Positions 1,957 through 55,720 of a DNA stretch of 64,000 nucleotides are shown piece after piece. The translations under genes were made by a program, and so were the position numbers. The notes under the pieces are model-generated. The model saw nothing but the letters and a program-made list of their open reading frames with translations, ran no database searches and was not told the DNA's origin. Source of the stretch: Clavelina lepadiformis (taxonomy: Eukaryota > Chordata > Ascidiacea > Aplousobranchia > Clavelinidae); contig NC_135241.1 in NCBI RefSeq assembly GCF_947623445.1, forward strand, positions 22,260,501 to 22,324,500, in the 5' to 3' direction. Numbering within the stretch: the stretch's first letter is position 1; each line of letters starts with the position of its first letter.

Positions 1957-4900
1957 ATGAAGATTGTTTTAGTTTTCGGTCTTCTCTTCGCCGCAGGTAA
2001 AGGTTTTAAAATTCTTCATTAAAACAAAACGAGAACATTAATTTAAATTATTGAAGTGAAGGAAAATCATAAATAGTTTATGCTTTCCGTAAGTTCCGAA
2101 ATGCTTAGTAGTTTTTGCACTGTTTATTTGGGATGTTTCTTATTTTTAACTTTTTATTAGAATTATGTTCTTAATGAAACCGTACAGTTATACCAATACA
2201 CAAACATCAATATCAAACTATCATTTATCAGTTGATTTGTTAATCAAGATTACTGGTATAGTATTGACGGCGCTTAAACTCCTTTTGCAAATTGTCCAGA
2301 GATACTTGAAAGTATGAAATAAGTTTAAAGAGTTATCATAAAAGAACTAAAACCCGTGAATAACAAGTTAAGCTTCTTTTGATGGCTTTTGAAGTTAAAA
2401 GGTTTTAATATCGGCGCTTATAACTCCCACTCGCCGGGATTAGACGGCATAAATCTCGGCCGAGAAACAAGAAAATTTCATTAACTTTTTACGGCTTTGT
2501 CATTTGCGTTCGCTTTTGTTGTTGCTCCACTCCAAAATGACCTCATTTCAATTCTTCCCGCCTCCAATTTCTTTTGTTGTTTGAGTAATTTGTCATGAGT
2601 GGATTGAACAGTTATCGTCGATAACGAAATAGGTCGATTAGACCTGGTTATTCGTTGTTTACAAAAAGCTAAAGTGTAGGTTACTTAGATTGTTGACATT
2701 GCTGAAATAGAATGCACATTTTTGCGGCTATAAGTTGAAGTCGTAACATTAATTGAAGATCAAAACAAATTTGATTAACGTAGTTAATTTTACCACGTTG
2801 GTAATCATCGGATGCCAGACTAAGACAAACCTCTCGTAAATGAAGATTTGGGAAATTTTTAATACATTCAAAAATATTTGATTACTTTGCTTGAAAAAAA
2901 AAACTCGCACTTGCATTGGCTCCGTATCGGACGTCATTTAAAAAATAAACACTGGTGGAACAAACAATCAGTTCGCGTTCGTGCTTTGGCAAGACGCGTT
3001 TTTGTTTTTCTGACCTCTTCTCAGGATGGGGCAGTCAGAGAAAGGACGATTTTAGTAGGCAGCCCGTTGTTTCTCAGCAGGGTGTCACTCTTTTGCAAGC
3101 CATGTGGGAATAAAATTTTCCTACTAATCGATTACAGCTACGTATTTACGATCTTTTTCGGCCGCCCAGTGAAAGATATTACGTCGGAGTAAACAGAAGA
3201 GCCAAATTGAGGTATTGTTTAATGGCCTTGCTCCCATTTTTTGCAGCTGTCGACGGCCAGGATGTGGAGAGTTCAGCAATTCGGGCAGCACTGGGTAAAA
3301 ATGTTGTCATACCTTGCAACTACAACTTGTCAGAGGTAACTTGGGTTCACTCTTTTTATAACGTTTGTAAACAAGCAATTATACTTATACGATTTACTTT
3401 ATGTATGTGTGATAAGTGTAAACAGACAAATATGTAAATCGACATGGTTCAACACCGATTCACAAATATTAATTTGTTGTCAACTTCTTTAAACAAAAAC
3501 CTTATCTCGACATGTAAATACTTTCTGTAGAAAAAAGTTTGTTCAGTTTCTTCCACCCACAAACTAGTATATATTACTGTACAGTGTTCATGGTAAAAGT
3601 GTTACATAGACATGAAGTAACTTATACGTGCTTTTGGCGCTGAGACTTTTTAAAAATATAGATAATAACTTAGCCCACTATGGTAAATCTTCAGCCGTGA
3701 TTCACTGGAACCGGACAGAAACATTTGTAGGCTATAACGTCAGTTATTGTCTTACTTAGAAGTTAGTGATGACCACCGTTGGACTTTTTATGCCTTAATT
3801 TAATCGTGATAATGCCAATAACATTGCATTGAATTACTTTCTTTGTATTAGGACGAAACATTTGTAGCGTTGTCATGGAAACGAGGTGATGGAGACATCG
3901 TCATTATGGGAGCTACAAAGGAGGCAAATTTTCAAGACGCGTTCAAGGGTCGCGCCACTATGTCTGGATACGACCTCTATCTTTACAACCTGACGCTGGA
4001 TGACACCAACACATATACTTGTACTCTTTTTACCAGTCGGGGATCAAGTGATATTACACATAACATCGAAGTTCTTGGTAAATTAAAAATTTTGTTTGTT
4101 GGGTTGTTTAAAAATTATTCGCGCGCGAGGTCCTGTCAAAGTTCATCAATTTTATGGCTCTTAAAAATCAGTTATTCGACTTATATTTCAAAACATGAGG
4201 TTTAGTGAGATAAAAATCAATGTCGGTCTTTAACACTTATGATGACGTCATTTTTGAAGGACCGTACAAAAGTGTTTGTCACAGGATAAGAGTGCTTTGT
4301 TCGTATTTCGAATGTGAAGTGATGTGTAGATGTTAGTTAGGCGTCGGTTATTTTTACCAATCTTGTATATTTTCACTCACAATATTAACCAGTTGTGTAA
4401 CATGTATGTTGAATAGTTTCAAACCTATGACAAGTCCAACTGCATGCCATGTTGTGGTTGACTAGTCACATTGATCGAATAATGCACAAATGCAATTATG
4501 TCACAACAGAGGCTTTCATGTTTCATCTTCACCATCGATGCGCAACATTAGACCTCTAACTTATAGTCTGAAAAAAGTTAAAGCTAATTTTTGACTTTCA
4601 TAATTTCTTCCAGCATCGCCATCAGTCAGCACTAAAATATTCCCACTCGAGATGTCTCCATCTGCCGATGATTGGTCAGAATCAGAAGCAAATCTTGCCC
4701 AGTGCACGGCTACAGGAGGAAGCCAACCATTCACGATTAAATGGTGCCAACCATTCACGATTATGTTGCTGCCAAATCTTACATAAAACAGACATAGTGT
4801 ACATAATTTTTGCGTGCTTGTAATCCATGTAAGCTATTGGGCCAGCGATTAGGCTTAAAACTGCTGTTTAATTGCTGTACAGGGTGACCGCTTCCGAGAA

Positions 4901-16579: not shown

Positions 16580-19500
16580 ATGTGGTTCATGAAGTTTGTA
16601 CAAGTTGGCTTGGCTGTTACATTTATGGCTGGATGCGCAGGTATGCTTTGTAGATATCAGCTTGTGTTATGAAATAAGAAAATGCGACTTGGTTAACCAT
16701 AGTAGTGTCGTCAAGCTGCTGGCTCGCTGGACACTTATCGCCTGCCAAGTCATTTTCTTTGGGCCACAAATATTTGCATGATTCGCTGCAAAACTTGACG
16801 TTACAATATATACGCGTTCATAACAATAAAGTGCAAAAGATAACTGATTTTAAGATGTTCGTTGACATATTGATACGGTACCGCTTGCAAGGTATATGAA
16901 ATAATTATCTCCAACACACAGATAAAGCCGGAAATTGACACCATACATCAGCAATTGTTAGCTCAGACAAAGACATGGTTTACTAACAATTAAGGAATTA
17001 TGACATTAATATCAGTTTTGAATCAGGTTTATCACGAGTCACAATAGACAATTATTGCTTCATATTGGCAGAGCATTTGCAAGTATTTACCAAACCAACC
17101 TTTCACAAAAAAGCATTAGAAGTTAAAATAGTTTTTAATAGCTAGCTAGATATATTACCGTAGACATCCTATGCTACGTACCTTACTTAATATGCCTCAT
17201 TAGTAATGGTTCTGCAGTTGTTCGCTGTGGTCGCAGCAAGTAAAATCGCGGCATAAAGTTGGCTTCCTGGAGCAGTTTAAAATTACAGGTGCAGGTTTCA
17301 CAAGCCACAATGATGGTCGGCAGTTGCAGTTGTCAACGCCTTGCAAAGCCCCATTATATTGCTTGCAATCGTAGTGATAAAAATAGACAATTATAGACAA
17401 TACACACGTAAGCTGCTGACGGTGGGTCATGTTTGGGTAGTTGCTGCCTCCTCCCCCTTCCCAAAGAGTCCCAACCCTGATGTCTTTATACCAAGAACAG
17501 CCAGATACCCAGGACGTTCAGCAGCAAAGTGAAAGAGAATCGAATCTGCAATCGTAGCGATAAGAATAGACACAAAATATCAACGACATAATTGGAGTTG
17601 ATTTCTTTTACCTAGTCGACAACGTTATAGCTACTGTCATACTTCTAGGTCAGGCGGCCATGGAAAGTTCACTGACAACTTAGGCTAGTCTTTGCCGTCA
17701 AAACACAATCACAAAGTATCCAGACTACGTCAAGGGTGCTCAAACATTTACACTTGCGCACCAGGTTCTATCGATTGTTTGCTTTCAGCTGGAGTAGGGA
17801 TTCTGCCCAGGTTCGGTCCAACTTTTTCAAAAGCAAAGAGGTTATAAATAAAACCAAACAGGCCGACTTACAACTTGAGAAGGCTTAGCTTGCTTTGCTA
17901 TATAATGGTCGATATCGAACTGATGTGGATTGACTGTTTGTAGCGACAAGCGAATCACTTCACTGTTACATTTTTTGTGCAAATGATACACAATTTCAGT
18001 TGGTCTATGTCAAGTATAGTTAGTACAGTAGATTTCCCCGATATCGACACTTAAAGGGGATGAACAAAAAGTGTCAATATAAAAGAAACAATAAAAATTG
18101 TTCCTTACTTCCAGTTTTAGTTCAATGTAAGGGTTAACTGTGTACTCTAATCAGCACTGACGTTTAATCTAAGGTTTTCGTGTGCGCTACGGCAAAGAAC
18201 AACACAAACAAGATCGTGAAAAATAATGGTAGTTGTATTTACACGTAATACGCACGCAGACGGTATACTGATGCGGAGCAATATGGCGTTAATACAGTAA
18301 CGTACAGTGCAGTATTTATTTCCTTTCAAAAAAGTGCAAGTATTTCACTTCCTTCCTACTTACCGGGATTACGTCCCGGAGTAAAAAGAAGTGCTAGAAC
18401 TGTCACTATAAATGGACAAAATGGTCTGGGGGATCCAAAAATGTGTCGATATCGGCGAACTGTCGATAAAACCGAAGTCGATATAAACGAATACAGTAAC
18501 GGTATATTAAGCTATAATTACAGTATGTAATTATAGCAAAGGAGCATCAGGGATGGCTTGAAACAAGTTATTTATTGTATTCTTTCGTCATCGATGTCAT
18601 TACTTTATTTATTCTCTTCAAACTTACTGTCCGGAACAGACTGCCCCTTTTAACCCACCCTTGCTACGTCACAGGGTCGTGACATATAAGTATAAGATAT
18701 AACTTTCTCTCTCTCGATCTCTCTTTCTCCAAAACCCACTTCATACCCACTTGTGGATGCAACAGCTCTAGAAAGATTGGATCTCACTAAACTGTTCGCG
18801 AGCTTTTACCACTTCTGCCTCTTTTTAACTTAAGATGAAGTTACGGCTTCTGCTGAGTGTGAGTTGTATTTGCCGAGCTGAACACGATTCAAAATGTCAG
18901 ACAGGTTTGGTGACAGTCTTTATTATTTTCATGAAACTGAGTTTTTGCAAAGCTTTTACACAATGTAAAACGTCAACGAAAAACGCTGATAATTTCAGTT
19001 GTTGTTGTACAAGTTGTACAATTTATGACCGACGGTGAAAAAGAATGTATTGCTGCAAAAATATTTTAGTAATTTAAATGAGCGAAAGTCCTGTTAATTT
19101 CTTTCGTTGTGGTAATGATAAAAATGCATAGACACAAAACGCAAAGCGGTATCTGTCCCACTAAAACAAGGCCAGCCTTCCCAGAACATGTTGTAATAGG
19201 TCATATCTTGCTTGTACTTTGGATATGGTTGATTTAGGTTTGTATTTTCGCATCGTCTACGGTAATACCACCAACCTGACTTGAATTCTTGGGCACAATG
19301 GCGGTTGTCGTCTTTATTGTTGTCAACGTCTGGAGTGCTGAAATCGCCGAAAAAAATTGGAGAGCCACGGAAACAAGTGGAAGCATTAGCTCGGCCGGAA
19401 ATAGATAAATGATAATTAAATTTTTTTGGATCGAACGAATTTATTATATATTCAGCAAATGCTTTGACACCGTCCCAGTCTTCAAGATCAAACCCAACTT

Positions 19501-22500
19501 CCGGTGCTTTTGGTGAATGAAAACCTTCCGAATATGTAGTAGTTTGCCTCGACAAACGATAGATATTTTCCAATCCGAGCCAATATTCACCTTGGAGATT
19601 CCCGAATCCTCTGACGTAATCATCCCAACCCCTGTTAAAGTTGACCTCCCCGTTCATTCTTCTTTGTATTGTTGTCCAGCCCTTCTTAGTTGAAACGAGC
19701 TCCATATCACAATAGACGTAGGTGAACTGGAATCGTTCCTTGAGCCATATCGGGTAGATACCACTTGATGTTGAACCACTCGTGTAGATGCTTGTACATT
19801 CTAAAATAAAACAGTAAAAGAAAATTTTAGTAATATTTCCTTATATTTCAAGTAATATAGTTTTATTTCTTTAACACTTTTATCTTTACAACAAAAATGT
19901 GACAAATCTTGAAATTACTATAAAATTGAATAACCTTATGTCAAATTTATATAAATGTCGTTCCAACTCTTCACAACATAATTGAAATCTGCTCTGTTAC
20001 CTTTTAAAACTTTGGCTGATTTTTCAATGTTTTGAGCGGTTTCTGCGCTAGCGATGGAGTTAGCGTACATCTGTTGTTGGTAGTGGCAATTTTGGAGATT
20101 ACGTAACTTCCGTCTTTTTACATTTTCCTGACTTATACTTTCCCTAACTTTGTGAACTCGATGCAACAATCTACCAGGTTGGTCACTGACTGCATCACAA
20201 TGCCAAGAATCAAACGTCAACAATAGCAAAAGCAAATGTAGAAACCATTTTCTGATGAAGTTTTTTTTATTTTCCAACATAGCTTTTTATCTTTTTCTCC
20301 GGAAAACAAACGCTACTAATTGTAACTCTTTTTAGAGTTGATATCTTAATGTTACAGAATGCAGCGTATTGTTAACAAATGCGAGTGGAAAGATTGAGTT
20401 CCCAACCGCAAGGGAGTGTGTAAATGACGTCATGTCGGCGGGTGCCAAGTCGTGGGAAATTCAACTCAAAAAGAGAGAAGTTGCATATTTGCAGATTGAT
20501 GAGGTTTTGTTCAGGTGAGGGCGATTACTCATCTAATAATGACAGATCATTATTTCATTAGTCTTCAGACAAAAAGGTGTCGGTAATGTCATATGAAGTC
20601 TTTTGTAATGTTTGTAGTGTTTCGTTGTAAATGTCATTAATATAAATATGTTTTTAGCCATATTGCTTTGGGAATTGCGCTAAACGTCCATGAAAAGTTA
20701 ATCCATGTATTTTCGTTATATTTTTTTATTCAGTTGTGCAAATGCAAAGTTGAAGCTAATCAAAGCGGATGGAAAAGAGATTCTTCTTTGCAAAGCTAAA
20801 AAACCAATTGATTATCCCAACTTTTACTTTGAAAACAATGTTACAATTTCTTTCAAAAGATTCACAAGGAAATGCAGCGAAGCAACTATTTCTTTTGTCT
20901 ACAACCACATTGGTGAGTAAAATTCTGCAAGCAGTATGAGTAAGGCGCTCATGCGCTTACGTTTACGCAGCAGCGTTCACGCGCTTACGTCACACGTTTA
21001 CGTAGCAATTCTCGAGCACCCACTGCTTTGCGCACCCGATGTACCAATTCACGTTTCGATTCACACAACAAGTTTTACCAACATAGGTAAATCTACGCGC
21101 CATTTGTCAACCAGAGTTTTTGAACACACAGAGTTAAACAAAGACTATATTATATCAGGCATAAAAGACCATATTAACCAATGCAATGGCCGCCAAACCA
21201 GCAACGTGACCATTAACTATTTTCAAATACTTTAAACGTGCAAAAGTGATTATGAGAGTAAAATCAGCGAAATGATATTAATCAAATGGAATAACCAAAT
21301 TAAACATCTCAATAAACAAGAGTTTGAAATAGATACATCGTTTTTACTAAAACATAACCCCTTTAACTTAGTAACTGTTACTTAAATGGTTTAATTCATT
21401 GCATTGTAGCGCTAATACCTCTTGTCTTGTTAACCTAGCCCAGTGGCTCTCAACCTTTTTTGGCTTACGGCACCCTGTAAACAACCAAAATATTTGGCGG
21501 CACCCACAGTGAAACCAAACATTTTCTGCATTAAATAAAAATAATTTTCGCAACCGTTTTCCTGGACTAGTGATTAGTGCGCAATAGCTTGCGTTACCAT
21601 TGCGAAACGTAAATGGCACCCCGGTTGAGAATCAGCCCCTAGAGGCCTAGACCTTACATAGCGAACGAAACTGTTTCTTTGTTTTTTCTGTCAATTATTG
21701 TCGCCCAGTATTCAATCTTGAAGCCCATTGTTGACATTTAAGACTTGGGAGTTTCTTAGATGGGACACTGCCTGCAGAATAAAAGAATGTAACAGCTGTA
21801 CTGATATTGTAGAAAAGTGATTTATATTTTAAGTGTACTTTAAGGTTTCCGATTAATGACCACCAGCACACACGTTCAAACCGGACAGAAAGTGCAGTTC
21901 GTTGCCACACTGACCGGAGCAAGCAATTTAAACCTCAACTGTGAGATTTCGTACAATAATTCCAGAACTGGATTTTCAACTAAAACTCTCACAGCTGAGC
22001 GGTCATTCAAGTATCCGGGAAAATATTTGGTTTTTGCAAAGTGCTTTATCGGTGGAAGTAGCAGTTTACGAACTTTTACAACTCAAAACCTGGTTCTTTA
22101 CGTGGAAGACTTTTTATCGGCATCAAAATTACAAATATCTCTCCAACAAAACGACTTCCAAACATATCCAGCCTCCACTGAACTCATCTTCCACCACAAA
22201 TATTACTTTCCCATCTCCTACGCTCTCATGTTGGATGATGTCATAATAACCGAGCTTCAGACGTCACAAACGTTTGATAATAAGAAAACTTTATCGAACG
22301 AAACGGTCAAGTTCGAACTGAACTCAACCATGCAACAATTGGTTGGACCGGGAGAACATGACGTCATATTATTATTGCAAAACCATATTTCTTCCGTGAC
22401 GTATTCTAAACCAGTCATATTCTACGAAGAGATTAAAAATCTTACAGTTATGACGGAACAATACGTCGGTCTTCGACCCAATGTTTTCGTCATAAACGTG

Positions 22501-25500
22501 ACAGTTAGTTCAGGAGCTCCGGTAAATCTTACAATCGACATCAGATCGAATCGAACCAGGCTGTCGGTCTTCAGAAGCTCTCAATTCTGCCCACGTGATT
22601 GCCACACGATGGCGATAGAGGCAACTTTGTCTCAAGCAGATATTTACGAAGCTGTGGCAACAGCTAGAAATAACATTTCTAAATTTACGTCATCCGCATT
22701 TTTTGAAGCGTTGCCACAGATCCACGACGTATATATTACGTCACGGGGATTTGATTACGAAACCCGTAGAGAGGTTTTTATATTCATCAGAGGTGACGTG
22801 GGAAAGTACGAAATGAATCTAACAATCGACAAAAATGCAGCGAAGAATTTGACTTTGACGATTTCAAAGACGAAATATAAACATGTGGGTTTGCCAAATC
22901 TACCATTCGATGCCGAACCTTACATGTTAATAAAAAATGAAAGTCTTTTCCAAGAAGCTCGGGAGGTCGTCGTGCTTATCAGAAACGAAAAACAATCGTT
23001 TCGTTTCGTTGGATATGTCCCGAAAGCTTTACCGTTGTCATGCTTGGAGAGCGTGAGAATTCGCGACGGGAAAGTTGGCGGTGGACTCGACGAACCTTTG
23101 AAAGTGGTTGAAGAGTTGGTCTTAAGCGTGGACCTTAACTTCAGATGCACTAGAGAGTTATTCTCCGTTGATTACAAATGGCGAGCGTACCGAGTGACGT
23201 CAAAAATAGACATCCCAAAAATAGGCGATGAAGTTCAACTTAACCCGAGCTCAGGTGAACCAGAGCTTGTGATAAAAGCCGATGACACGTTACCTGGGTT
23301 GTACGTCATAAAGGTCAACGTCAACGTCATTTCTGACGAAAGATTAAATGTAATAGCAAATGGCGATGACTACACCTTGGTAGAAATTCCCAAGAGAAAA
23401 TTAAATTTTCTAATCAAGGGAGGAAATGTGCTCGAGGCTGGTGAGTCGATAATATTAGATTTCTATGTTAAAGTTTTGCGGTTTCCCGTTACAAGAAATG
23501 TTATCCCGAAATGCCTAATCTCTATGCACAGGAATGAACACAAATATTTTAAAATTTGAGTCTTCAATTGACTTTAACAAACATGAGGGAAATATCAAAC
23601 GTGACTGGTTTTGTGCCGTCGCACAAGAAGATTTACCAATGACAAAAGAGATTGGAAAAATACAAAGAAAAGGTTTGAAAAGATTTTCTCATTTTAGGTT
23701 TTTTTGATCAAAAATTGAATTTTATTTTTCACTTCCAAGGTTCCTGCTTTGGTTCGCAAACTCTTTATGTTACTGGCGATGACGTCATGGAAATTTCCAT
23801 GGACAAACTGGTGCGAAGCGACCGTTATTACGTCAGGCTAATCGTATCGGGTCCGCATTATGACGCAACGTTTGCCGACCAGACAATTGTTTTGAAATCA
23901 ACCTCAACCCCGAATGTTACTTTAAGGCGAGTTATGCAGAACCTTTTTCTTCCTGCTTCCATGAGCTTAAATTTATATTCGTTAACCTATGAATTCTTTT
24001 TAATCAAGTTCCATTTAAATTTAACGTTCTTCTTTGAACTTCAGGTGCAGGTCAAATTGCGAGAAATTGTTTTTTCCACACAAGCCAATGATCCTTCAAT
24101 TAAAGTGTGACGATTGTACACGTCACACTTGGGTATTGTCACTAAGATCCGGACAACAATTAAGTTTGTGCCAGAACCGACGATTCTGTAAACTTAATAA
24201 TTCACTACTCAACATAATTAGCTCGTCATCAAACGTCACAGGAATAGGTGAATCCCCATTATATGAATTTGATGTCATCAATAAATTAAAAGTAGTCCAT
24301 CATTAAATTAAACTTTGAACTTGACATTAAGGATACAATGTTGACGGTGTCATGGCATCGGCAACCCTAATCCTTAACCCATTGTCCCCACCTAGTGGAG
24401 GTAGTTGCAGGGTTACACCCAAAAGTGGAATCGCTTTTATCACAAAATTTAACGTCACCTGTTCTGGCTACGCACAAGGCCAAGCCTCTTTGAAGTTCAA
24501 GTTCTCTGTCAAGGAAAAAGGTAAAACCTCATTTTGTAGCAAGTACATAAGTGCTAAGATTAAAATTATGTCGTAATTATTAACACAAGGTAGACTAAAC
24601 CTATACTTAATTAATTTAGGATGTGAATATTTTTGTTTATCACTTAACTTTCCACGGGCTCTAAAACCTGGCAATCGACAACAAGAAAGTTTTTGAAGTG
24701 AAAATATTTTTTGAGACATTTTTTGAGACATTTTTGTGCAAGACATATTTTTTAAACCTTTTTCAATATAGTTTATAAATTTAAATACGAAATATCAAAT
24801 GGCTTACAACTTTGATTTTAATAAAAATACGCTAATTTACAATTTAAAATACTTTAAATCAAATAATACACCTGATGTATAAGACTACGATGAGGAAATA
24901 TTTCCCTAGTTTATTAAGTTGCGCTTTTTTTGTGCTGAAGCAAAAATGGCGATTTGTTTTCGCGTTAGTAACTGCAATACTTGCATAATATCATTATTTA
25001 ATAATAATTTTTAATATTTACTCTTAAGAAGACAACTGTCTGTGGCCACATCAGGTTGGCAAAACTTTTAACAAACATGACTCTTGCACTTACAACACGT
25101 CATGCGGTGTTTGTAGATTGGAAGTTATGAATAGATTAAAATGTAATAACGAAACATTTTCAGGCCACGATAATCTTCTGCAAAGTAGTTGCGATCCGAA
25201 CCTCTATGACCTCACACTATCGTCAGAGGACTTCGTTTCTGACGTCACGATTTCGATCGCAATATGCAGCCTTCGTCAGTCGTGCACTGAGAAAAACTTG
25301 ACCGTGACTTTGAGGAAAACTCCCGACGTCAACAAACACCTGACTAGTGACGTATTTTACGCGATTTCGAGCCACAATCTGCAGAAGACGGCGCAGGTTA
25401 TACCGCCATTGTCTTCAGCAAAGATTCTCAAACCGTTTCTGGTAGGTTTATGACGTCATAGTATCTATTTATGGATGGACCACTTCAAGTGCCTTCATTG

Positions 25501-28500
25501 TTCTTTCGTTTAACAGATAACTAAGATATTAGATCGAACCGCGGATTATCCGCTAAATACGCTGACGTCGGCCAAGCAAGTAGCTGATGTACTACGCCAC
25601 CTTACGGAAAGTTTTGGCGTCGCAAATGAGCATCACGTGGTAGGAGCAGAAATATAAAAGTTAATGTGATAGATTTAAAAACTAAACACAGCTAACTTGT
25701 TTGTTTTTTATAATTTCAGTACCAATTGGTGAGGACTTTGAACCGAATAGAGTTCATCGTTCATAAACACTCTAGCGAGGGCGATGATGATGTCATAAGG
25801 TCAATTGCGGCTTCATGCGTTGTCGTTACGTCACATTTGATGGAATTTTCCAACGAAATTCGTTTTAAGGTAACAACTTGTATAATACTACTGACGTCAC
25901 GATTCAATTCTTTAATGACAATTATTGCAAAGATCAAAGAAACTTCGCGAATGACCCGGCTGGGCAAGCTGCTTATGACGTCATTGGTACCAGGAGAGGA
26001 TACCATGACGTTTGAAACAAAATCCGTTCAAGGACGATTCCTCAAGTTAAACAATGACGTCATAAGTAAGTTTTATTGAGCAGGAATGTCGAACTCGCTG
26101 TCCAATTTAAGCTCAAGTGCGACACCCGACGAGTTTTGTTTCATGATCTTTTCTGAAATCGTTGGCTGCGTTTAATTCTATTACTCTACATGCGCTTTAT
26201 GCTTTATGCTTTTGCGTTCAGACGCCGACTCTGCGGCTTAAAAAACGAATTTTAAACGCAGTTGCTAAGACAATTATTGACCAGACTCGTTTGTGACAAG
26301 CGCTAAGCTGTAAGACGATGCCTAGAAAAGTTAATTTTTTAACGAAAATAAATTAAGAAACTAGAAGATTGATTTTTGTCTTTTGTCGTGACGTTGAAAA
26401 CCCAATAAAGATGATTATTATCATTTAATTAATTTTATCGTTTTCATGTTTTGTCTTATTTAATCTTTAAACAATACATAACTAATTATATTGCGAATGT
26501 TTTTGGTGTAGGATAAGTTTTGTGGAATAAGCTTCGCAATATTTGAGCAATTTGGTTTTATTATTTGTCGTTTATTTTCCTCAGTAGGCCGCGCTTTGCA
26601 ACGATTCTAACTCTATGACGTTACTTAGTGGCTTAAATCAACTGAAACGTAGAATAACGAAAAAAAACTTTTTCAGATCCACTCAATGACTCTTCACTTC
26701 GACTTCCAAACATACAGATACTGAGCAATGAAGTCATCAATGTCGAGGCATAATATATTTAATTTGCTTTATTTTGCGCGATTTAACGTGATAATGAGAC
26801 GATTTCATGATTTCTAGGTTTTCACCTACGACTCGTCCATCAACTTTAACACGAGGACCCACAAAGTCGATCAAGTCACGTCCGTCTCCATGACAACGGG
26901 ATGGCGAAACGAGATCCCGATCAGTCGCAACGACGCCAAAAATCAAACAATTGGCTTCCCCTTGCCAGCACAGCCTGGTAAAGGAAACATAACAATGAGG
27001 GTTGAGAGTGAATGCGACGTGGCTGGTTGTCACAGCAAAGCCGCAGGTTGGGCTTTGTTTGATTGGATGCTCTACAAACGAGATGGAAACGACCTCTTTC
27101 TTACAATTCATGTCGAAAACATGGATCAGAAAATCGAAAATTGTACAATGAGCCTGGAAACTACCGACCAAAGCTCTTTCAAAATAAAGAAAGAGTTTCA
27201 CGAAAAGGGTTTGTTTACAGAAAATAAGAGTCACGGTTTTCATGTTTGTAAAGATCAGCACTTTTCTAATTATTTAGCATTTTTTGTCGACTTTTTTCTC
27301 AGAGTCTTTGTACACTTGGTCGATTTCGGAAAATTCGCTTCCGCACAGACAAGTCGAACTGAACGTCACAGTGTATGTTGATATGGGTGCGGGATTTTAC
27401 CGCATTGGAAGTTTGATCAACGTGACATTCACGTCATTCATACTGAATTGCTTGCACTGGGAAGATCGAATGCGCGACTGGAGCGAGGGCTCTTGCAAGG
27501 TCGTATATTTGATGTCGATGTTTGTATCATGAAAGATTTTTGAAGCAGAGTTTAAACCAATTCTTAATCTAACTTTTATTATTTTAATCATTCCAAGCAT
27601 TATGAGCAAAGTGATTTTATTATCATCAGGTCCATCAAAACGATGGGACATTTAATTGTGAATGTGACGTAGACCAGGTCACACCAAACAGGGTTAAGAG
27701 GAGCGGAGAGGAGGAGATTCCTCAGATTATCTACGCTTCCCATCTTCTTGTGTTTCCCAACAAGATCAATTATGACCAAGTAAAAATGTTTATGACATAT
27801 TAGAAGTTTTTAGTTCTAATTGTCAATTATTGAATCGTTTTTAGGTTTCCTGGAATCTTTGGGAGCAATTCCAACAAAACCCAGTGATCATCATCGTTTT
27901 ATCTGCTCTTTACGTCATCTACGCTCTTCTCCTTATATGGGCGAGATGTAAAGATCAAAATGCGGAGAAAAAAGTACAAAGTTATCAAACTATTGTCAAC
28001 TTCATGAAATGATTTATCAAATTTTAATATTAAAATTATGAAAGGGACTCTTCATTGAAGTTGCTGACAACTCGCCAAACGACCAATACCGGTATTACGT
28101 CACAATTTATACCGGTAGTCGTCCAAACGCCGGTACCACCGCGGCAATCAGCATGAGACTGCTGGGCAAAAGACAAAGGAGCAATGCCCACGTCATACAA
28201 GTAAAAAGATGACGTCTGCCATAGTGTATGATAGTTGGTTTCGACGTCATAATGATTGATTGTTTGTTTAGCGAGAAAACGACAACATCTTATCCGTGGA
28301 CAGCGTGCAATCGTTCCTTATTACCACACCACGTAGCTTGGGCGACATCAAAGCAGTCAGGATGTGGCGCAATGACGGAGGGAGCAATCCTGAGTGGTAT
28401 GAATTAGTGACAAGTTAACTGCAGTTGTATGAATTAGAGTTGAAAACGGTCCTTGTATTTTTAACCCGAAAAGTTATATGAATCTCAAACTAGGCCCTAA

Positions 28501-30901
28501 AGTTAAGTTTATTAAATGAACTAAATTCATCTTTTAATGCTAATCTTGGACTGTTCATTTTTAAGTTGTGTGCAAGTGGTGCAGTGTGTAGTGAAAGCTT
28601 AGCCCGACTTAAAACTCTTTGCATGAATTAGTTATTTATTGCAAGTTATACGTCAGGTATCTGGAACGTATGATTGTACGAGATTTGGAAACAAACGAGT
28701 GTTGGTTCTTTCTATGCGGTACCAGGTTCAGCGACGTCCTGGAACATACATTCCGGGCCTCCACGTTAGAGGAACTGCAAATATCTAATAAATTGTTCCT
28801 CTTAAAGTGTGAAAACCACTTTAAAGACAGGTATGTTGCTTATTGATTTCACCACGCTGTGCCATATTATCATCTCGTAATCTTCTCATTTTCAGACACG
28901 TCTGGTATTCCTTATATGGTATGAGGCCTTGGCAGCAGTACGTCATGACGAGGGTGGAAAGAGTGGCAACGTGCTTTCTCTTCATATTCCAGGTAATGTT
29001 AACATCTATGATGTTTCATGGCCACAGTTATGCAGTGGATGGAAATGTGCTGACATTTGGGCGTTACTATTTCAAGTGGTCTCACATTGTCGTCGGTAAG
29101 TCCAGTCAAACGTTACTGAAAGACCAGATGTTTATTTCTTTTAACTAATCAGGTTGTTCAAGTCTTAATAGTTTGTTGTTTTCTGTCATAAAGGTATTGA
29201 GAGCGCTTTGATGTGCTTTCCCGGGCCGTTTCTTATTAGCCTATTGTTTCGTCACGCCCAACGACGAAAAGGAAACGAAAAACCGAACCCTGACAAGAAC
29301 GTACAATCCACAAAACCCACCAGAGGGCAGCATAAAGCAGAAACATCATTTGTGCGTAGTCATGACGTCCAAATTACCGGCACCACGATGAAAGAAAACA
29401 CTAGAAATACGTCACAAGTAAACACTGCGGAAGTTGACCAAGAAAGAAAAAACGCTGGTCAACGTATTCCAGACGACAAAGATCGTCCTTCGACATCAAA
29501 AGAAGTCTCTAACGTCGTCATCAAACAGCCGCCAATTTTCCCGGGAAAATTTGAAATTATAAATGAAAACATAAGACGAGAGAAAAATCCCCGAAAATTA
29601 AGATATTTGTCGATGACTAAAAAACCTACCTCGTCGCGCGTCGAACAAGTTGTGCCCAGTAAGTCATTACCAGCTAAAAGTGTGACGTCATCAAAAAAGA
29701 CAAAGTATATTCCGTCGCGCGTTGAAAGGAATGCGGCTGCTTTGTCACCGCCAATGAAAGGTATGACGTCGACAATAAAGGAAAAGTCAAAACGTTTGCG
29801 CGTTGAAAATAATGTGGCCACTACGTCATCACCGGTAAAAGGTATGAAGACGTCACAAAAGAAAAAGTCGAAGTCTTCGCGCGTTGTAAAAAATGCGACC
29901 ACTACGTCATCGCCGTTGAAAGCTATGACGTCTTCACAAAAGAAAAAGTCGAAGTCTTCGCGCGTTGAAAAAAGGGCGACCATTACGTCATCGCCGGTGA
30001 AAGGTATGACGTCTTCACAGAAGAAAAGATCGAAGACTTCGCGCGTTGAAAAAAATGCGACCATTACGTCATCGCTGGTGAAAGCTATGACGTCTTCACA
30101 AAAGAAAACGTCGAAGTCTTCGCGCGTTGAAAAAAATGCGGCCACAACGTCACCGCCCGCAAAAGCACTGACGTCATCAGTAGTCAAGCCATCGGCAAGG
30201 TATAGTGCTGGTTGTTTTTGTTGAAACCAGTTTGTTCGTGAAATAAAATTGTTTATATCCAGGCCGCCATTGTCTGCTGCTGAAGCGCAGCAAGAATTCA
30301 CAATCCTGGAAATAGATCCAAACACGATAGATCCTCTCGCCATTGTCCACTTTTCCATCTACGTCGCCTGGTTTTATATCATAGCAGTCATGGTCACGTC
30401 GACTGTGATTTGTGTACTGTACGGCATGACGTATGGACTTGAAACCTGCAGAGATTGGTGAGCAATTGTTACCAAATAACGAACCGTTAAGATTACGTCA
30501 CACCTGCTAACACTTGATCAAATTTCAGGTTGGTTTCGTTCGTGAGCGCTTTCATCGAAACAGTCGTAATTCTTGAATCTTTGAAAGTGGTCGGGATCGC
30601 TTACTTCTCAGTGTTAAACAATCCGAGACACGATCTTCGCGATTGGGTTCCTCCTTTGCCACCATCAGGTTCTTATCAAAACTATGATTTAGTGGGCGCT
30701 TTGAACGCGTTTAATGATTTATTTCTTCATGAAGTGAGGCCCCGATCTTACGTTAATCGTGGCGCAATAAGGAGAAAACAGAAGAGAGAAAAACCGACCA
30801 ATCCAATTTATCGTTCTCCAACGCGTGAGAGAACCAATCGCAAGATAAACACGCAGGAGAATATAGAAATGCGACCCATCAAACAACGTGTTTCTCCATG
30901 A
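16580..30901 (+). CDS. s-Themis: s-Themis-type polycystin-1-like sperm receptor
   Basis: A 23-exon model of 2,208 aa in full phase: 16580-16640, 20358-20514, 20734-20912, 21845-23440, 23532-23672, 23740-23926, 24045-24247, 24332-24520, 25164-25441, 25517-25639, 25720-26065, 26677-26747, 26818-27208, 27303-27499, 27630-27779, 27845-27973, 28045-28200, 28272-28396, 28657-28830, 28896-29095, 29194-30199, 30263-30457, 30529-30901. Exon 1 is a signal peptide. Exon 4 carries a PKD-like fold. Exons 4-9 look REJ-like (PSGGSC, CSGY). Exons 14-15 are a GPS-like Cys/Trp region without the usual HL(S/T) cut site. Then come membrane span 1, a PLAT domain (exons 17-18), spans 2 and 3, a loop with seven 27-residue repeats, and spans 4 and 5. 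It stops before a TRP-like channel region. In Ciona, s-Themis is the sperm receptor for the egg ligand v-Themis, encoded antisense in intron 1 as here. Exon 1 could instead be 18835-18904, and subtype A/B is unresolved. Confidence 0.85.
18026..18496. mobile_element. pogo/Tigger-like non-autonomous element
   Basis: The left end at 18026 begins CAGTAGATTTCCCCGATATC and shares the core CGATATCGACAC, inverted, with 18443-18462. A second TACAGTA occurs at 18492-18498. The CAGTA start, the TA flanks and the repeated TATCGAC motif are typical of pogo-like Tc1/mariner elements. The inverted match is imperfect and the right boundary is uncertain. It sits in the 5' half of the s-Themis intron, upstream of the alternative first exon. 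Confidence 0.5.
18835..18904 (+). other. Alternative first coding exon of s-Themis
   Basis: An ATG at 18835 opens a short frame starting MKLRLLLSVSCICRA that reaches a donor after ACAG at 18904 in phase 1. This is the phase needed to join exon 2 at 20358. It would encode a short secretion signal. The exon at 16580 gives a longer hydrophobic core and the same phase, so I prefer that one. Both may be used as alternative starts. Confidence 0.35.
19094..20280 (-). CDS. v-Themis: v-Themis-type fibrinogen-like egg-coat ligand
   Basis: Two exons on the minus strand, 20280-20001 and 19800-19094, join in phase to encode 328 aa. Residues 1-30 are a signal peptide with a Leu-rich core (LHLLLLLLTF). The next 60 or so residues are basic and polar and may be helical. 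From about residue 94 runs a fibrinogen C-terminal domain: ECTSIY, SGIYPIW, VYCDME, GWTTIQRRMNGEVNFNR, YWLGLE, a calcium-loop-like DVDNNKDDNRHCA and GWWYYRRRCENTNLN. In Ciona, v-Themis proteins of this type sit on the egg vitelline coat and are the self/non-self ligands read by s-Themis on sperm. The gene lies in intron 1 of the receptor gene, antisense, with its ATG 77 bp from receptor exon 2. A minus-strand AATAAA lies at 18924-18919. Confidence 0.88.
21074..21340 (+). mobile_element. GIY-YIG-type retroelement tail fragment (Penelope-like)
   Basis: Intron 3 of s-Themis contains a frame reading NIGKSTRHLSTRVFEH, then SGIKDHI, then FQIL. In another frame past a stop it continues SKISEMILIKWNNQI. 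This succession (IGKSTR..L..R..EH, ..I..H, ..E..LI) matches the GIY-YIG endonuclease tail seen in Penelope-like retroelements. Only the 3' end is present and it is disrupted. Confidence 0.5.
21441..21640. mobile_element. hAT-like short element with degraded ends
   Basis: The left end CAGTGGCTCTCAACC and the right end GGTTGAGAATCAGCC are imperfect inverted copies. GGCACC boxes lie just inside both. This is the end signature of a large group of non-autonomous hAT elements. The 8-bp target duplication is not clean. It lies in intron 3 of the s-Themis-type gene, next to the retroelement fragment. Confidence 0.6.
29631..30199 (+). repeat. 81-bp coding tandem repeat, seven units
   Basis: Seven units of 27 codons lie within s-Themis exon 21. 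Each follows SRVEKNA, then a Thr/Ser stretch with SPVK, then a MTSSQKKKSK-like end. The first two units are most diverged and the middle ones most alike, as expected of a minisatellite that still expands. The repeats lie in the loop between membrane spans 3 and 4, which is basic and rich in Ser/Thr. Confidence 0.9.
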
Positions 30902-43935: not shown

Positions 43936-46900
43936 ATGGCGCGTGGGAACAGAGTAAACGAAGTGAAGGGCAAAGAACCTGTTAACTGGGAGAGTTTAGC
44001 CTCGCGTATAAAGAAGAGAATCGCTGATAATGATCCGTTCTTTTCACTTGAGTTTTTTCCACCACGAACTGAACAGGGCGCTGCCAATCTTATTGGAAGG
44101 TAAGTGCCTAAGGATTGTTAGTGGGCAGAAGTTATTTACAAGAAATAACTATTATTATCGTATCATGCATAAATAACAACTTGCTTCAATAACAATAACA
44201 TTGCTTATATTAATAAAAGAAAAAGTAACCAAGAAGAAAATAGATTGAATTAAGTTGAGACTTAGGCCTATGTATATATTTTTTATACTTACATGTATGT
44301 AAAATTTGCTGTTTTGTTACTTTTCAAATTTTTATACAATATGTGTCATGTCATGTTCATAGATTTGATCGCATGAGTCAGGGTGGACCACTGTTCATAG
44401 ACATCACATGGCATCCAGCTGGTGATCCAGGTGGTGACAAAATCACATCGTCAACAAAAATTGCTGGTACTGTTTCAAATTACTGTGGGCTTGAAACAAT
44501 GTTGCACATGACCTGCTGCAAACAAAGCCCAGAGACGGTGAACCGTCATGTCGAAAAGACAAAATCTCTTGGAATTTGCAATATATTAGCTTTAAGAGGA
44601 GGTAAATTGAATGTACTGTTCTGTATCGGCTATAATTACAATGTTTACTGTTAAATACAAACTATTTTTATGGTTAAAATTTAAACTGAGATTGTCTTTC
44701 TTGCTCGCAAGCTAATCTGATATCCTTGTATTTCTTAGATGCTGATGAGGATAACTGGACATTTAATGAAAACGGTTTCAATTATGCAGTTGATCTGGTC
44801 AAGTTTATTCGTAAAGAATACAAGGATTACTTTACTATTTGTGTTGCTGGTAAGTGTTTGCTTTCAGTTGAGCACCACAGATAAAAATTTCAACTTTTCT
44901 ATGAGCAAAAACATCACTGCTTGGAATTGAGATGTTTTTGAAATGCCACACTGTGGACAAATTTATTTTTGTATACTGATACTACATCACAGGTTATCCA
45001 AATGGGCATCCGGACTGTTCATCTTACCAGGAAGATCTTCGACATTTGAAGGAGAAAGTTGATGCTGGAGCTGATTTTATTATCACACAGCTCTTTTTTA
45101 CAGCAGAAGAATTTCTCCACTTTTTATCAGATTGTCGAAAAATTGGAATTACCTGTCCAATAATACCAGGCATTTTTCCTATACAGGTAATGTTGCACAA
45201 ATTGACTATGGTTAGGTATGCAATTACCAAGAGAAGAAATAACTTTGTGAAGTTATTTAATTTATCTAAACAGACTAATCGGTCTTTGGTCCAACTTACC
45301 AAACTTTCAAAACTTACAATACCTGATGAAATACAAAAAGTGATTGAACCAATAAAGGATAATGATGCAGCCATTCGAAAGTATGTACAACTGGATGTAA
45401 CCATCTAATGTACAGTAATTTGCACCAATATTATCATTTTGAAAATTTATTCATATTTCATGCACACCCTGAACCAAGTTGTCTTATTGTGATACGATTT
45501 TTTTTCAGTTTCGGAATCGATCATGCCACGGACTTGTGCCGTAAGTTGCTGGATTCTGGGAAAGTCCACGGCCTGCACATGTATACTCTCAATCTGGAAA
45601 CTGCCACAGTTCAAATTTTGAAAAACTTAGGTAGGAATGGGCATTCTGGACTTATTAAATGAGATGACGAATATTATTCTACAAATACTTTTCAAAGTTT
45701 TTAAACAATGAAACTTTGTTGTAGTTTTTTTGTATTTAAATTGTTTAACGAAAATATGCCGTACTGTTTGAGCAAGTAAAGTACAAATTAATAAGTTGTT
45801 TTTATTTCAATGCAAAATGTTCAATATTTCCATTTTTCCGGCAAACTGTATCGTATACGTTTCCGCACCAACGATAACTTTTTCTTTACGTTCATGCTGA
45901 CCGATTATAATTATTTATCCAATTTTTGAGCTTGCAACAATATTAACTCAAGCCGCAAAGCACGCCTTCATGAGACGATTTTCAAAAACCTCGTAGAAAA
46001 AAAACAACCGGTCATGCCCTAGGCGCGTGATCACTACGTTTGCCGTGAGTGGTGTTTCATGCACGATGCGCATGATCGTTATGCTCGACTGGTTGCAAAG
46101 ATAAAGAAGAGATAAAGGAAGCGCCACGTGCAGCATGCGTGCTTATTGCTCACATGCGGAGAGCGCAAAATGCGTATGGTTCGTTGGTTATTTCCCTAAA
46201 CACGTTTAATGGAGATCATTTCGGTTCCACCTGCAACTACCAATAAACACAGCTTAACAGAGCACCTTCGGGTATAGCAAAACCTGCTCTATAAAGCGGT
46301 TCCTCTATTGCACGATGAGAGCTGTCTTCATTACGAAAGTGGGTGTACAAAAGAAAAATGACATAAATTTCGACATCACGGCATTTTTTCTCATTTGCTG
46401 CGTATTCCTGCCGACCTGCCCTCAATTTAGTGTACAGGAAAAAAGAATTGGTAAATTTTCCAATGTTTAACATTTCCATTTTTTCCGGCAAACTGGATCG
46501 TAAACAAATACAGTACTTAAATTAGAACCAAGAATATAACAATCTTCTATGCTTAACTCATTACATCATCGCCATAAGCATAATGCATTAATGTTTACTT
46601 GAGCCGCAAAGTTAAAGGATACCTATTGCAAAACAATGTGCAGATAATTCATAGAAGGAACTGAAACTAATCATGCGCGTTTACAAAATGGTTTATTCAC
46701 GCCGCGCGTCATCGTTATGCTCGACTGCTCGCAAAGATAAAAAAGGAAAGCGGCGTGGCGTTCTGGTTCCATGTTAAGCGCCACTACTTACGCCCACTTG
46801 CGGAATTAAGTATTAAAATGTGGATTGCTGTCGATTATTTTCTTAGATCTGCAAAATTGGCGATTATTTTTATTCCTATTTGAACGACATCATTCAAACT

Positions 46901-53086: not shown

Positions 53087-55720
53087 TTACGGGGATTTTT
53101 GGAATTGCTCGTGAAAAATCTCTCTTATATCCGGATGTCCCCCATTCAGAGCTGTGTTTAAGTCTTCCTCTTCACTTCTTGTGTTGTGATGGATGCTGCT
53201 GATCTTGAGATGAATACGATCCCTTGAAAGGGAAGTTCGCTCCGCTTTATAGCCAGGACTATGGCGTCCTAAGCTGGATGTTGACCACTTTTGGTGTAGC
53301 CGGCTGCCTTCTTTAAGGTCATCTTTAATGATCATGGACGAGATGCCTGATATGACAGACATAGCTCTTGAATCATGAACATTGATCGTACTTTCACTTG
53401 CTACTCTGCTGATTTTGTTTCTGCTTCTGTTCAAGTGAGAAGAATTTACTCTCTGTCGGTGTAGTGCTGCTACTGACATGGCACTTTGGCTCCTGTAGGA
53501 GTTAAGAGATGAAAAAGAAGATACGAGTCGTGGCTTGTCTGACAGTGGTCGTTGCTTTTTCACTGGGGCACTAAACGGTCTGTTTCGCAAATTAGAACAA
53601 CTTATTGATGAGGCCCTGTTTCGCGCAGCTCTAACGTATGGACGACAGTGACCTATGCCCTTTTCGAGTTTATTGTCGTCATCGTTGATCTCACAACTGG
53701 CACGATCAGCAGCAAGATCATACTTCCACGAAATGGACTCAAACTGAAGGAGAAGAACATTGCTAAGTGTATTGACAATCAGTTTGTCAGAAGTAGCACA
53801 AAAAGAAACAATTGAATCACACTTGCTATTTCCTCTTACGACTCGCAAGCACTCCCCAGTGTGCAAATGAAGGACTCGAATTTTGCCATCCTCACAGCCG
53901 CTTACAATGCGAAGATACCTCAGTTCAACACAAAGGACCTTCTTGGGGTGCCTGTAAGCATTCACATGTTGTCTGATGTTACCATTTCGGAGCCAGGTCA
54001 TGACATACCCATCGTGGGAGCCACTTACAACGTAGTGGTCATCCAGACCAACACTTGACACAGCATCTGAATGACCAACAAGCATCTTGCACAATTTTCG
54101 TGTGGAGATGTCCCAAACCTTTATAAGACCCCTGTCACATGAACTGACAATGGTATCTTGAAGAAACTTGATGCATGTAACTGGTGAACATTTGGAGTGC
54201 TTGAAAGTGCAAGAACACTTTCCGGTTTTGACATTCCACACTTTTATGAGTCCATCGTTGGCAGCTGAAACAAGAACATGATTAGAGTAATCGAGATTAG
54301 TAACTGACTTCCTGTGTCCATGGAAGATCTGCTGACAGCTGCTACTCCCTAGTTTCCATCGTCTGATCGTTGTATCATAACTTCCACTGAAAATGTAACC
54401 GGTTCCATCATCACTTACAAAAAGGGAGGTAATTGAACCAGGGTGGCCTCGTATCGGGGGTAAAATCTCATGACCATCGGTTGAGTTAAACAACCGAATG
54501 ATTCTGTCATTGGAACCAGATGCAATTATATTTCCTCCACTGTAATGAATGACACGATGGGGGTCTGTGTGTTTATCCAGGATGAGTACATTATACGATC
54601 CGCAATATACGTTCCTCTCCTCCATTTCATATTGTGCGATCTCCAGCTCACCAAAGGAATTCCTATGCTGGTAAAACTTCTCTTCTGAGGAAAATGGATC
54701 ATTCAACCTGACATTTTGAGAAAGAGGAACAGAGATAATCTTCTTCTTAGCATAATTTGGATGTGCTCCTTTGGCCGAAACCCCTTGCATCATCACTGCT
54801 TCCTCAAGAATTTCCCGCTTTGTTCTCGATTCCAGTTGCACCTGACGGACAAGTGTATGCCATCTTTGACACACGCAGGCTGCATTTCTCTGTGTGCTCA
54901 GACCCAGCAAACTTATTATTTTCTTTGCTAAATGAATTGGAAGTTTCGAAATGAAATCAGTGTAAGGGCACACTCCACTCAAAGCCTGTTGCGAAGCGCT
55001 GACAACAATTGCTCTTGGATCCATGGAGGACTCAGAAGAAGAATAACTGGATTCTGAAGGTAAATCAGATTCACTTTTGATATCTTCCTGCATCTTGTTC
55101 ATGTCAGGACGTGCAAGTTCATAGCATGAGTTTACTTCAGCCAGCATGTAAATATCAGGATGCTGATCTGTGTGAAAACTGTGAGTGGAATTTGAAAGGG
55201 AATCTGGTTCTGATATCAGACTGTCATCCACAGTGAATATATTTTGCTTTCTCTTCTGTTGAACATACACAGTTTTTGCAAGATTAAGAGCCTGGTGCAA
55301 TATTGTTGAATCGTCAATTACCATTATGATGCAATAGAGGAAATTTGACTTGTTACTAATATTTAATGATGAAAACCATGACCAGGCTTTGGAGATTTCA
55401 ATTTCAATAGCTCTTAGTTTAACAGAAAATTTATTTGAAGAAAATTCTTTCTGATAATGAAGTAAACTGGAATTGCATTGAGATCGAGAATAGGTAAAAT
55501 CTTTTTCTTTCATGGATGACAATATTCTTATGGTTTGCTTTAGTAAAGCTAGATTTTCAATTCTATGAATTATTCCCAGAAAAAACTTTCTTGTTGTGCT
55601 AAAGTTTGCTCTCAGTAACCACTGATAAACATCTGCGACACCTTTTTGAATTTCCTTAGTAATTTGTATTTGCTTCTGCTTTCTGATAGGAAATTGATCA
55701 ACTTTTGCAGGAGTTGCCAT
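53087..55720 (-). CDS. FBXW10: F-box and WD40-repeat protein, FBXW10-like
   Basis: A single uninterrupted frame of 877 aa. Residues 1-150 are helical, with repeated aromatic and Leu positions. Residues 160-240 are acidic and Ser-rich. An F-box lies at about 255-297 (FISKLPIHLAKKIISLLG, CVCQRWHTLV), which would bind SKP1. At least five to six WD40 repeats fill about 385-645 (IASGSNDRIIRLFNS, FSGSYDTTIRRWKL, VSAANDGLIKVWNV, SSCDRGLIKVWDI, VSGSHDGYVMTW, VSGCEDGKIRVL). The tail is basic and Ser/Arg-rich. This order fits FBXW10/CDRT1, a presumed substrate receptor of SCF ligases. RBX1, which would work in the same kind of complex, is also in this window, though 15 kb away. The lack of introns is unusual here. 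Confidence 0.85.
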   Translation of the reverse strand: MATPAKVDQFPIRKQKQIQITKEIQKGVADVYQWLLRANFSTTRKFFLGIIHRIENLALLKQTIRILSSMKEKDFTYSRSQCNSSLLHYQKEFSSNKFSVKLRAIEIEISKAWSWFSSLNISNKSNFLYCIIMVIDDSTILHQALNLAKTVYVQQKRKQNIFTVDDSLISEPDSLSNSTHSFHTDQHPDIYMLAEVNSCYELARPDMNKMQEDIKSESDLPSESSYSSSESSMDPRAIVVSASQQALSGVCPYTDFISKLPIHLAKKIISLLGLSTQRNAACVCQRWHTLVRQVQLESRTKREILEEAVMMQGVSAKGAHPNYAKKKIISVPLSQNVRLNDPFSSEEKFYQHRNSFGELEIAQYEMEERNVYCGSYNVLILDKHTDPHRVIHYSGGNIIASGSNDRIIRLFNSTDGHEILPPIRGHPGSITSLFVSDDGTGYIFSGSYDTTIRRWKLGSSSCQQIFHGHRKSVTNLDYSNHVLVSAANDGLIKVWNVKTGKCSCTFKHSKCSPVTCIKFLQDTIVSSCDRGLIKVWDISTRKLCKMLVGHSDAVSSVGLDDHYVVSGSHDGYVMTWLRNGNIRQHVNAYRHPKKVLCVELRYLRIVSGCEDGKIRVLHLHTGECLRVVRGNSKCDSIVSFCATSDKLIVNTLSNVLLLQFESISWKYDLAADRASCEINDDDNKLEKGIGHCRPYVRAARNRASSISCSNLRNRPFSAPVKKQRPLSDKPRLVSSFSSLNSYRSQSAMSVAALHRQRVNSSHLNRSRNKISRVASESTINVHDSRAMSVISGISSMIIKDDLKEGSRLHQKWSTSSLGRHSPGYKAERTSLSRDRIHLKISSIHHNTRSEEEDLNTALNGGHPDIREIFHEQFQKSP

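Follow-up and report, generated by a model that had tools for sequence, protein, structure and literature searches.

The window analysed here, a stretch of 64,000 nucleotides from chromosome 2 of the ascidian Clavelina lepadiformis (C2:22260501-22324500), contains a nested pair of genes: a v-Themis-like gene for a predicted secreted ligand with a fibrinogen domain, and an s-Themis-like gene for a polycystin-1-like receptor, the first intron of which holds the ligand gene in antisense orientation. A Themis-type self-incompatibility locus had been proposed at this place from the sequence (the original prediction). The layout and both protein architectures agree with that proposal, whereas the notion of a single locus does not stand, since about 28 such pairs exist in the genome.

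The ligand gene occupies 20280-19094 on the minus strand and lies wholly within receptor intron 1 (16641..20357); the original prediction had put it at 19094-20280, and the gene models returned these coordinates exact to the base. It encodes 328 amino acids in two exons. Exon 1 (20001..20280) comprises the signal and an N-terminal stretch that is about as variable as the two patches named below. An intron of 200 nt, between 20001 and 19800, separates it from exon 2 (19094..19800), which carries the fibrinogen domain (Pfam Fibrinogen_C, E=6.2e-40) and includes the stop codon. Two variable patches are found in this domain, at 19487..19531 (residues 91-105 of the fibrinogen exon) and at 19352..19441 (residues 121-150). 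The N terminus is hydrophobic, as judged by eye, in all 20 ligand models made from this and related loci, and secretion is thus predicted. Most of these models share the splice donor AAG/, while in C2_24.61 the site lies seven codons further on.

The receptor gene (16580..30901, plus strand) has 24 coding exons, with the ATG at 16580 and the stop codon at 30899-30901, and encodes 2232 amino acids. Its 23 introns (21 GT-AG and 2 GC-AG) are consistent in phase and the sole stop is the terminal one, so that the earlier description of both genes as full-length and phase-consistent was confirmed. The gene model, Pfam, hydropathy and a match to human polycystin-1 together give a protein that runs from a signal peptide through variable exons 2-3, an Ig/PKD-like exon 4, REJ, a degenerate GPS and PLAT/LH2 to a membrane part of five passes. 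Exon 1 (16580..16640), the signal peptide exon, is separated from the other exons by the ligand gene and is based on the gene model and on relatives elsewhere. Exon 2 (20358..20514), only 77 nt from the ligand start codon, encodes the first half of the N-terminal variable domain, and exon 3 (20734..20912) has its peak of variability at 20759-20803. An assignment of exons 2-3 to the CUB domain was dropped, as a profile of 17 copies gave neither a CUB nor any other credible match in Pfam or among solved structures. Exon 4 (21845..23440) contains beta-sandwich domains and the start of REJ, and its first 105 residues are also variable. Its AlphaFold model, made from 18 copies that each lay within one fetched piece, is of low confidence (mean predicted local distance difference test score 59) and matches only generic beta-sandwich arrays in the PDB (TM-score on the query <=0.24).

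Exons 5-14 (23532..27208) continue REJ (Pfam E=6e-35) and the region up to GPS, which itself falls in exons 15-16 (27303..27779) in a degenerate form with a furin-like RVKR/S and without HL[ST]. A basic KR site near the degenerate GPS occurs in all ten readable receptors, four of which have RX[KR]R; if the receptor is cleaved at all, a furin-type protease is a more likely agent than autoproteolysis at the GPS. Exons 17-21 (27845..29095) encode the first membrane pass, PLAT/LH2 (Pfam PLAT, E=7.4e-15) and the second pass; the best solved relative of the receptor, human polycystin-1, matches over the first membrane pass and the PLAT region (E=2.7e-22). Exon 22 (29194..30199) supplies the third pass and a Lys/Ser-rich loop, and exons 23-24 (30263..30901) passes four and five, after which the protein ends without a channel domain. 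The count of five passes after the signal peptide comes from hydropathy peaks grouped by eye in the window receptor. A tandem repeat of 81 nt in 6.1 copies (window 29683-30179) falls in the coding sequence of the loop that joins passes three and four, and exon 22 differs in length between receptors, with 1006 nt in the window and 1234 and 1240 nt in two copies on chromosome 3.

A search of the genome (209,060,895 bases in 95 contigs) with the ligand revealed at least 30 family members, each with at least 212 bits: 7 on C2, 5 on C3, 1 on C4, 9 on C5 and 8 on C9, i.e. on chromosomes 2, 3, 4, 5 and 9 (loci are named by contig and position in Mb; counts of large families are lower bounds). Other fibrinogen exons score at most about 45 bits and are well apart from the 30 family ligands. 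Receptor exon 4 is present genome-wide in 28 open full-length copies and one broken copy (C2:24.70), and the receptor exon-14 region in 28 places. Each of the 29 sizeable copies of exon 4 is located 5' of a family ligand, at a distance of 0.9-3.4 kb and on the opposite strand; conversely, 29 of the 30 family ligands are paired with such an opposite-strand exon 4. The 30th ligand (C9:12.99) is intact and adjoins a receptor that has other exons, exons 4-16 not being found there. The 29 copies are not independent trials, because they are related by duplication, and the count leaves aside exon-4 fragments of fewer than 180 residues (7 places, 11 of 42 match rows). REJ matches also occur outside the family, e.g. 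at C1:7.65, C2:7.92, C2:21.55 and C7:8.76, and among the matches listed no fibrinogen match is close to them. The recurrence of the nested structure is far beyond chance.

Stop-free two-exon ligand models of 316-335 amino acids were obtained in all 20 loci tried (the window and 19 fetched, of 30). Since models were accepted only if stop-free and with the intron phase of the window, this demonstrates the existence of such a model in each locus and not an independent recovery of the phase. Beyond the ligand, receptor exon 1 was recovered in eight of the 20 modelled loci, the window included, and partly in one more; it was looked for but not found in four, and in seven the fetched piece was too short on that side. 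Its same 20 residues recur in C2_21.85; related exons are present in two C3 loci, and four C5 loci contain candidates. Ten loci were fetched over the whole gene, and only in C3_23.14 were all 24 receptor exons modelled. The automatic models take the exon phases of the window, and the exons left unmodelled were often exon 9, in C5 exon 13, and in some cases 22 or 24; because of this incompleteness, a receptor intact over its full length is shown only in the window and in C3_23.14.

Several further observations concern the repertoire. Within its contig, each of the 30 family ligands lies towards the high-numbered end, at a distance of 0.8 to 4.7 Mb. Two C9 ligands about 69 kb apart (C9:12919141-12919830 and C9:12988366-12989055) have equal score and identity and probably represent a recent duplication. 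Exon-4 fragments without an adjoining family ligand (C3:22.50, 23.67 and 23.73; C4:22.43; C7:2.42 and 2.44; C9:13.46) are probably relics. Decayed extra copies of exon 2 occur 3' of the ligand in four C2 loci (L029:2307-2459, L030:1850-2012, L032 and L033). Their use as alternative exons was considered and rejected, given that of the two read out one is frame-broken and neither has a good pair of splice sites. In eight of the nine C5 units, the exon 14-16 (GPS) region is present in additional copies of the same orientation, about 11-14 kb beyond receptor exon 14 (e.g. C5:23559448-23560486); these may belong to another receptor-like gene, serve as alternative exons or be relics. Two divergent fibrinogen-domain sequences, C5:24394087-24394770 (84 bits) and C7:15097488-15097910 (75 bits), are 32-34% identical to the ligand. 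No receptor exon 4 was found near either, and they may correspond to the v-Themis-like protein of Ciona that is not polymorphic.

All variation reported in the following is variation between paralogues of one assembly and not between alleles. Groups were compared over 18 loci (6 on C2, 6 on C3+C4 and 6 on C5, without the two C9 loci), with smaller samples for exon 3 of C5 (4 loci) and exons 5-8 of C2 (3 loci); the exon-23 match in C4_21.86 is spurious, as it overlaps exon 2, and the C3+C4 row for exon 23 was ignored. Copies diverge most from each other in the ligand, i.e. in its N-terminal exon and the two fibrinogen patches, and in receptor exons 2-3, while much of the receptor body diverges less. 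Per 250 bases, the DNA of the six copies on C2 is 57-92% identical over 18.6-21.8 kb, which includes the ligand, exons 2-3 and introns; identity is 87% at the start of exon 4 and then 94-96% from 22.1 to about 23.7 kb, where the comparison ends just past exon 4. Synonymous divergence (dS) of the fibrinogen exon is 0.227 [0.175-0.290] in C2 versus 0.112 [0.090-0.139] for exon 4, 0.569 [0.463-0.724] in C3+C4 versus 0.240 [0.182-0.318] for exons 5-8, and 0.582 [0.459-0.756] in C5 versus 0.111 [0.065-0.168] for exons 20-21. Exon 2 of C2, with a dS of 0.175 [0.079-0.322], is indistinguishable from exon 4.

At the protein level, residues 1-60 of the fibrinogen exon are nearly constant (mean pairwise difference 0.02-0.10). 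The corresponding value for the first patch is 0.48 in the six C2 copies and 0.64 in all 20, and for the second 0.39-0.41 and 0.58-0.64; the last ten residues of the exon likewise reach 0.58 across the 20 copies. Ligand exon 1 differs by 0.22-0.40 in C2 and 0.44-0.73 in the 20 copies, and its mean identity within groups is 52-67%. The N-terminal domain of the receptor peaks at residues 61-75, with 0.56 in C2 and 0.67 in 17 copies; in exon 4, variation over the first 105 residues exceeds that over most of the remainder. When hot-spot codons of the fibrinogen exon were picked in the other groups, their ratio of nonsynonymous to synonymous divergence (dN/dS) in C2 was 1.25 [0.75-2.40], versus 0.33 [0.22-0.49] for the rest. 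In the receptor, group-wise dN/dS is 0.07-0.51 in the regions measured; exceptions are exon 3 by itself (0.41-0.90) and exons 2-3 taken together (up to 0.72).

Trees were built from 20 ligand, 19 exon-4 and 17 exon-2-3 rows, the remaining loci having no model. Copies sort mainly by chromosome: those of C2 and of C5 each form one group in all three trees, and those of C3 do so in the exon-4 tree only. Ligand and exon-4 trees conflict in places, according to five approximately unbiased (AU) tests with p from 1e-7 to 0.019, for which the groupings were named after the trees had been seen. For example, the ligand tree joins C4_21.86 with C3_23.08 (99/97) and C2_24.57 with C2_21.85 (100/99), and exon 4 rejects both pairings (AU p=0.0001 and p=0.009, respectively). 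Such conflict suggests exchange between copies, also across chromosomes, and we consider this exchange likely on the strength of the trees.

On whether the ligand and exons 2-3 move jointly as a matched module, the results are mixed. The best exon-2-3 tree places C4 with C2 (90/84 for protein, 84/81 for DNA), as does exon 4; the same exons do not reject the C4 + C3_23.08 grouping of the ligand (p=0.22 and 0.059). Exons 2-3 reject the C2 pair of the ligand in the DNA data (p=0.033) and not in the protein data (p=0.12). The unity of the five C3 copies, seen in exon 4, is rejected by the ligand (p=0.006); here exons 2-3 side with the ligand, as DNA rejects it (p=0.025) and protein is borderline (p=0.055). 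Distances of the ligand correlate with those of exon 3 in C3+C4 (r=0.96 and 0.78) and with those of exon 2 in C2 (0.54 and 0.79). In C5, they correlate with exon 4 (r=0.86 and 0.87), versus -0.21 to 0.28 for later exons.

The closest known counterparts of this arrangement are the Themis pairs of Ciona. In the excerpts of the literature on which we draw here and below, v-Themis is described as lying in intron 1 of s-Themis in the opposite direction, and the receptor as having a hypervariable region, REJ, GPS and LH2 (PMC7018956, PMC9265791, PMC8849226). Ciona has three pairs, which give strict self-sterility; s-Themis-A has five membrane passes and s-Themis-B and -B2 have eleven and a PKD channel, which is linked to the self response, and these channel-bearing B types matter most (PMC7018956). 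B and B2 are nearly identical outside the hypervariable region, pairs are duplicated within the locus, and truncated copies occur (PMC7018956). At least four 'alleles' of s/v-Themis pairs are present in the database of Halocynthia roretzi (PMC9265791), and homologues are known from Ciona savignyi (PMC8849226). Neither species is an aplousobranch, unlike Clavelina, and among the matches listed in the open-licence literature (titles and beginnings of abstracts) no Themis paper on an aplousobranch was found.

The pair in the window resembles s-/v-Themis-A of Ciona intestinalis type A in having a fibrinogen-like ligand gene antisense in intron 1 of a polycystin-1-like receptor, and s-Themis-A in particular in its REJ, LH2, five passes and lack of a channel. 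It differs in belonging to another ascidian order, in occurring as about 28 pairs instead of one, and in its degenerate GPS with a basic KR site; the likeness described is one of architecture. With the B types, the Clavelina pairs have in common that nested pairs are duplicated, near-identical outside a variable N terminus and in part truncated, whereas no counterpart was found to the eleven passes and PKD channel of those types. The damaged pairs C2:24.70, with its broken exon 4, and C9:12.99 (L027/L028) resemble the truncated copies reported in Ciona. Architecture thus argues strongly for membership in the Themis family. The original prediction held that the subtype could not be set from the sequence; because the window receptor has five passes and ends without the C-terminal PKD channel that is the hallmark of s-Themis-B/B2, an A-type can nevertheless be proposed for it. 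Vertebrate PKDREJ and polycystin-1 are similar to the receptor in REJ, PLAT and membrane topology, have eleven passes and, to our knowledge, no nested ligand gene.

We lean towards the view that the window pair belongs to a large repertoire of the Themis family, in which a match of ligand and receptor would mark self and stop the sperm. The window holds a nested pair with open frames, at least 28 related pairs share its arrangement, and the ligand and the receptor N terminus are more variable than the rest; by analogy with Ciona we infer the tissues, the binding and the self-rejection, and with them a role in self-incompatibility. As in Ciona, the fibrinogen-domain protein would be secreted onto the vitelline coat of the egg and the sperm would carry the five-pass receptor. 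The variable parts of the ligand would meet the domain encoded by exons 2-3, and a matched pair would be a self signal, upon which, again as in Ciona, the sperm would be rejected. By nesting, key and lock would stay together on the same DNA segment.

A number of results weigh against this view. The variation lies between paralogues, and dN/dS intervals above 1 occur in no group or region measured; the contrast at hot-spot codons is weaker in C3+C4 (0.67 vs 0.26) and not seen in C5 (0.39 vs 0.29). Nor is the downstream body uniformly quiet, exons 14-15 of C5 being divergent as well (dS 0.469 [0.358-0.632]). The conflict between ligand and exon-4 trees points the same way, as does the lack of correlation between ligand and exon 3 in C2 (r=-0.20 and 0.00), a mismatch that strict lock-and-key co-inheritance does not predict. 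The receptor falls short of its models in two respects: its GPS match in Pfam (E=0.17, 12.9 bits) is below the cut-off of 22.5, and the cleavage triplet HL[ST] is missing in ten of ten readable receptors. A PKD channel was not found in any pair; C3, C4, C5 and C9 gave no PKD_channel match, and the matches on C2, confined to 7.94 and 21.56 Mb, lie outside the pairs. Moreover, Clavelina lepadiformis, an aplousobranch, lives in colonies and broods its embryos (PMC10884593), and the open-licence literature, as represented by titles, beginnings of abstracts and passages of PMC7344649, yielded nothing on self-fertility of Clavelina.

Some of these points are also those on which other explanations build. 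The same anatomy would fit a Themis-derived gamete recognition system that serves another purpose, such as sperm choice, species recognition or a polyspermy block in a brooder, without self-incompatibility: about 28 pairs are far above the three with which Ciona achieves strict self-sterility, no counterpart was found in the pairs to the channel that is tied to the self response in Ciona, and dN/dS is mostly below 1. Variable parts and nested linkage are, however, just what a self-marker needs, and no specific argument speaks for species recognition; we regard this alternative as unlikely, if worth keeping in mind. Rather more doubtful is an innate-immune or colony-allorecognition family, in which a diversified secreted fibrinogen-domain lectin and a membrane receptor would act in blood or epithelium. 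The animal is colonial, the family is large, clustered and variable, and the solved structures nearest by sequence to the ligand fibrinogen domain are angiopoietins, tenascin-R, FIBCD1 and ficolins. Yet a ficolin- or FREP-type fibrinogen gene would be untied to a REJ receptor, and here 29 of 30 ligands face a receptor exon 4; a nested, linked pair with a REJ and PLAT receptor matches the gamete system, and we know of no comparable nested ligand-receptor pair in immunity.

The repertoire could finally be a decaying or neutral expansion, with a few active pairs and the others as passive copies or donors in gene conversion. The broken exon 4 at C2:24.70, the receptor at C9:12.99 in which exons 4-16 were not found, the seven further places with exon-4 fragments only, the decayed exon-2 copies beside some ligands and the disagreement of ligand and exon-4 trees would all be expected of such decay. 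Nevertheless, 28 of the 29 sizeable exon-4 copies are open, a stop-free ligand model was obtained in every one of the 20 loci, and receptor dN/dS is 0.07-0.51 in the regions measured apart from exon 3 and exons 2-3 combined, so that we hold this explanation to be very improbable.

If the favoured reading of a self-marking Themis repertoire is correct, the manner of signalling calls for explanation. As no channel was found in the pairs, the receptor would need a partner to pass on the signal, and any calcium signal would depend on a distinct polycystin channel or on some other route. Matches to polycystin channels occur at other places in the genome (C8:1.06, C2:21.56, C7:8.77 and others). The region C2:21549273-21558798 combines REJ and PKD channel matches about 8 kb from each other and is some 0.3 Mb away from the closest pair; this is perhaps a channel-bearing polycystin gene without nested ligand and a candidate signalling partner. 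Rejection would presumably require a match at many pairs, because rejection upon a single match would leave few compatible mates unless there were very many alleles per pair. We tentatively raise the possibility of a multi-locus code of self-identity, in which some 28 channel-less pairs on five chromosomes would jointly refuse sperm that match at many pairs, and exchange between loci would supply new variants.

Such a code, if it exists, would be an animal counterpart of recognition codes with many components. Themis is an animal self-incompatibility system with known male and female determinants, the function of which, in the literature drawn on here, is shown in Ciona only, with three pairs. 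Nested pairs in a budding and brooding aplousobranch, which lives beside its own clone-mates because it buds and broods, would place the system deep in the ascidians. With about 28 natural variants of lock and key in a single genome, specificity could be tested at the level of residues, and Clavelina would be an unusually rich animal system for the study of self and non-self between egg and sperm. The pairs also raise the question of how a channel-less repertoire signals and why one species needs so many pairs.

Apart from the nested pair, the window contains a weak immunoglobulin-domain match at 3852-4205 (plus strand; E=0.0011, below the cut-off), two frames at 44259-45408 (plus strand) that match methylenetetrahydrofolate reductase, and one open frame of 889 amino acids with F-box and WD40 matches at 53087-55756 (minus strand).

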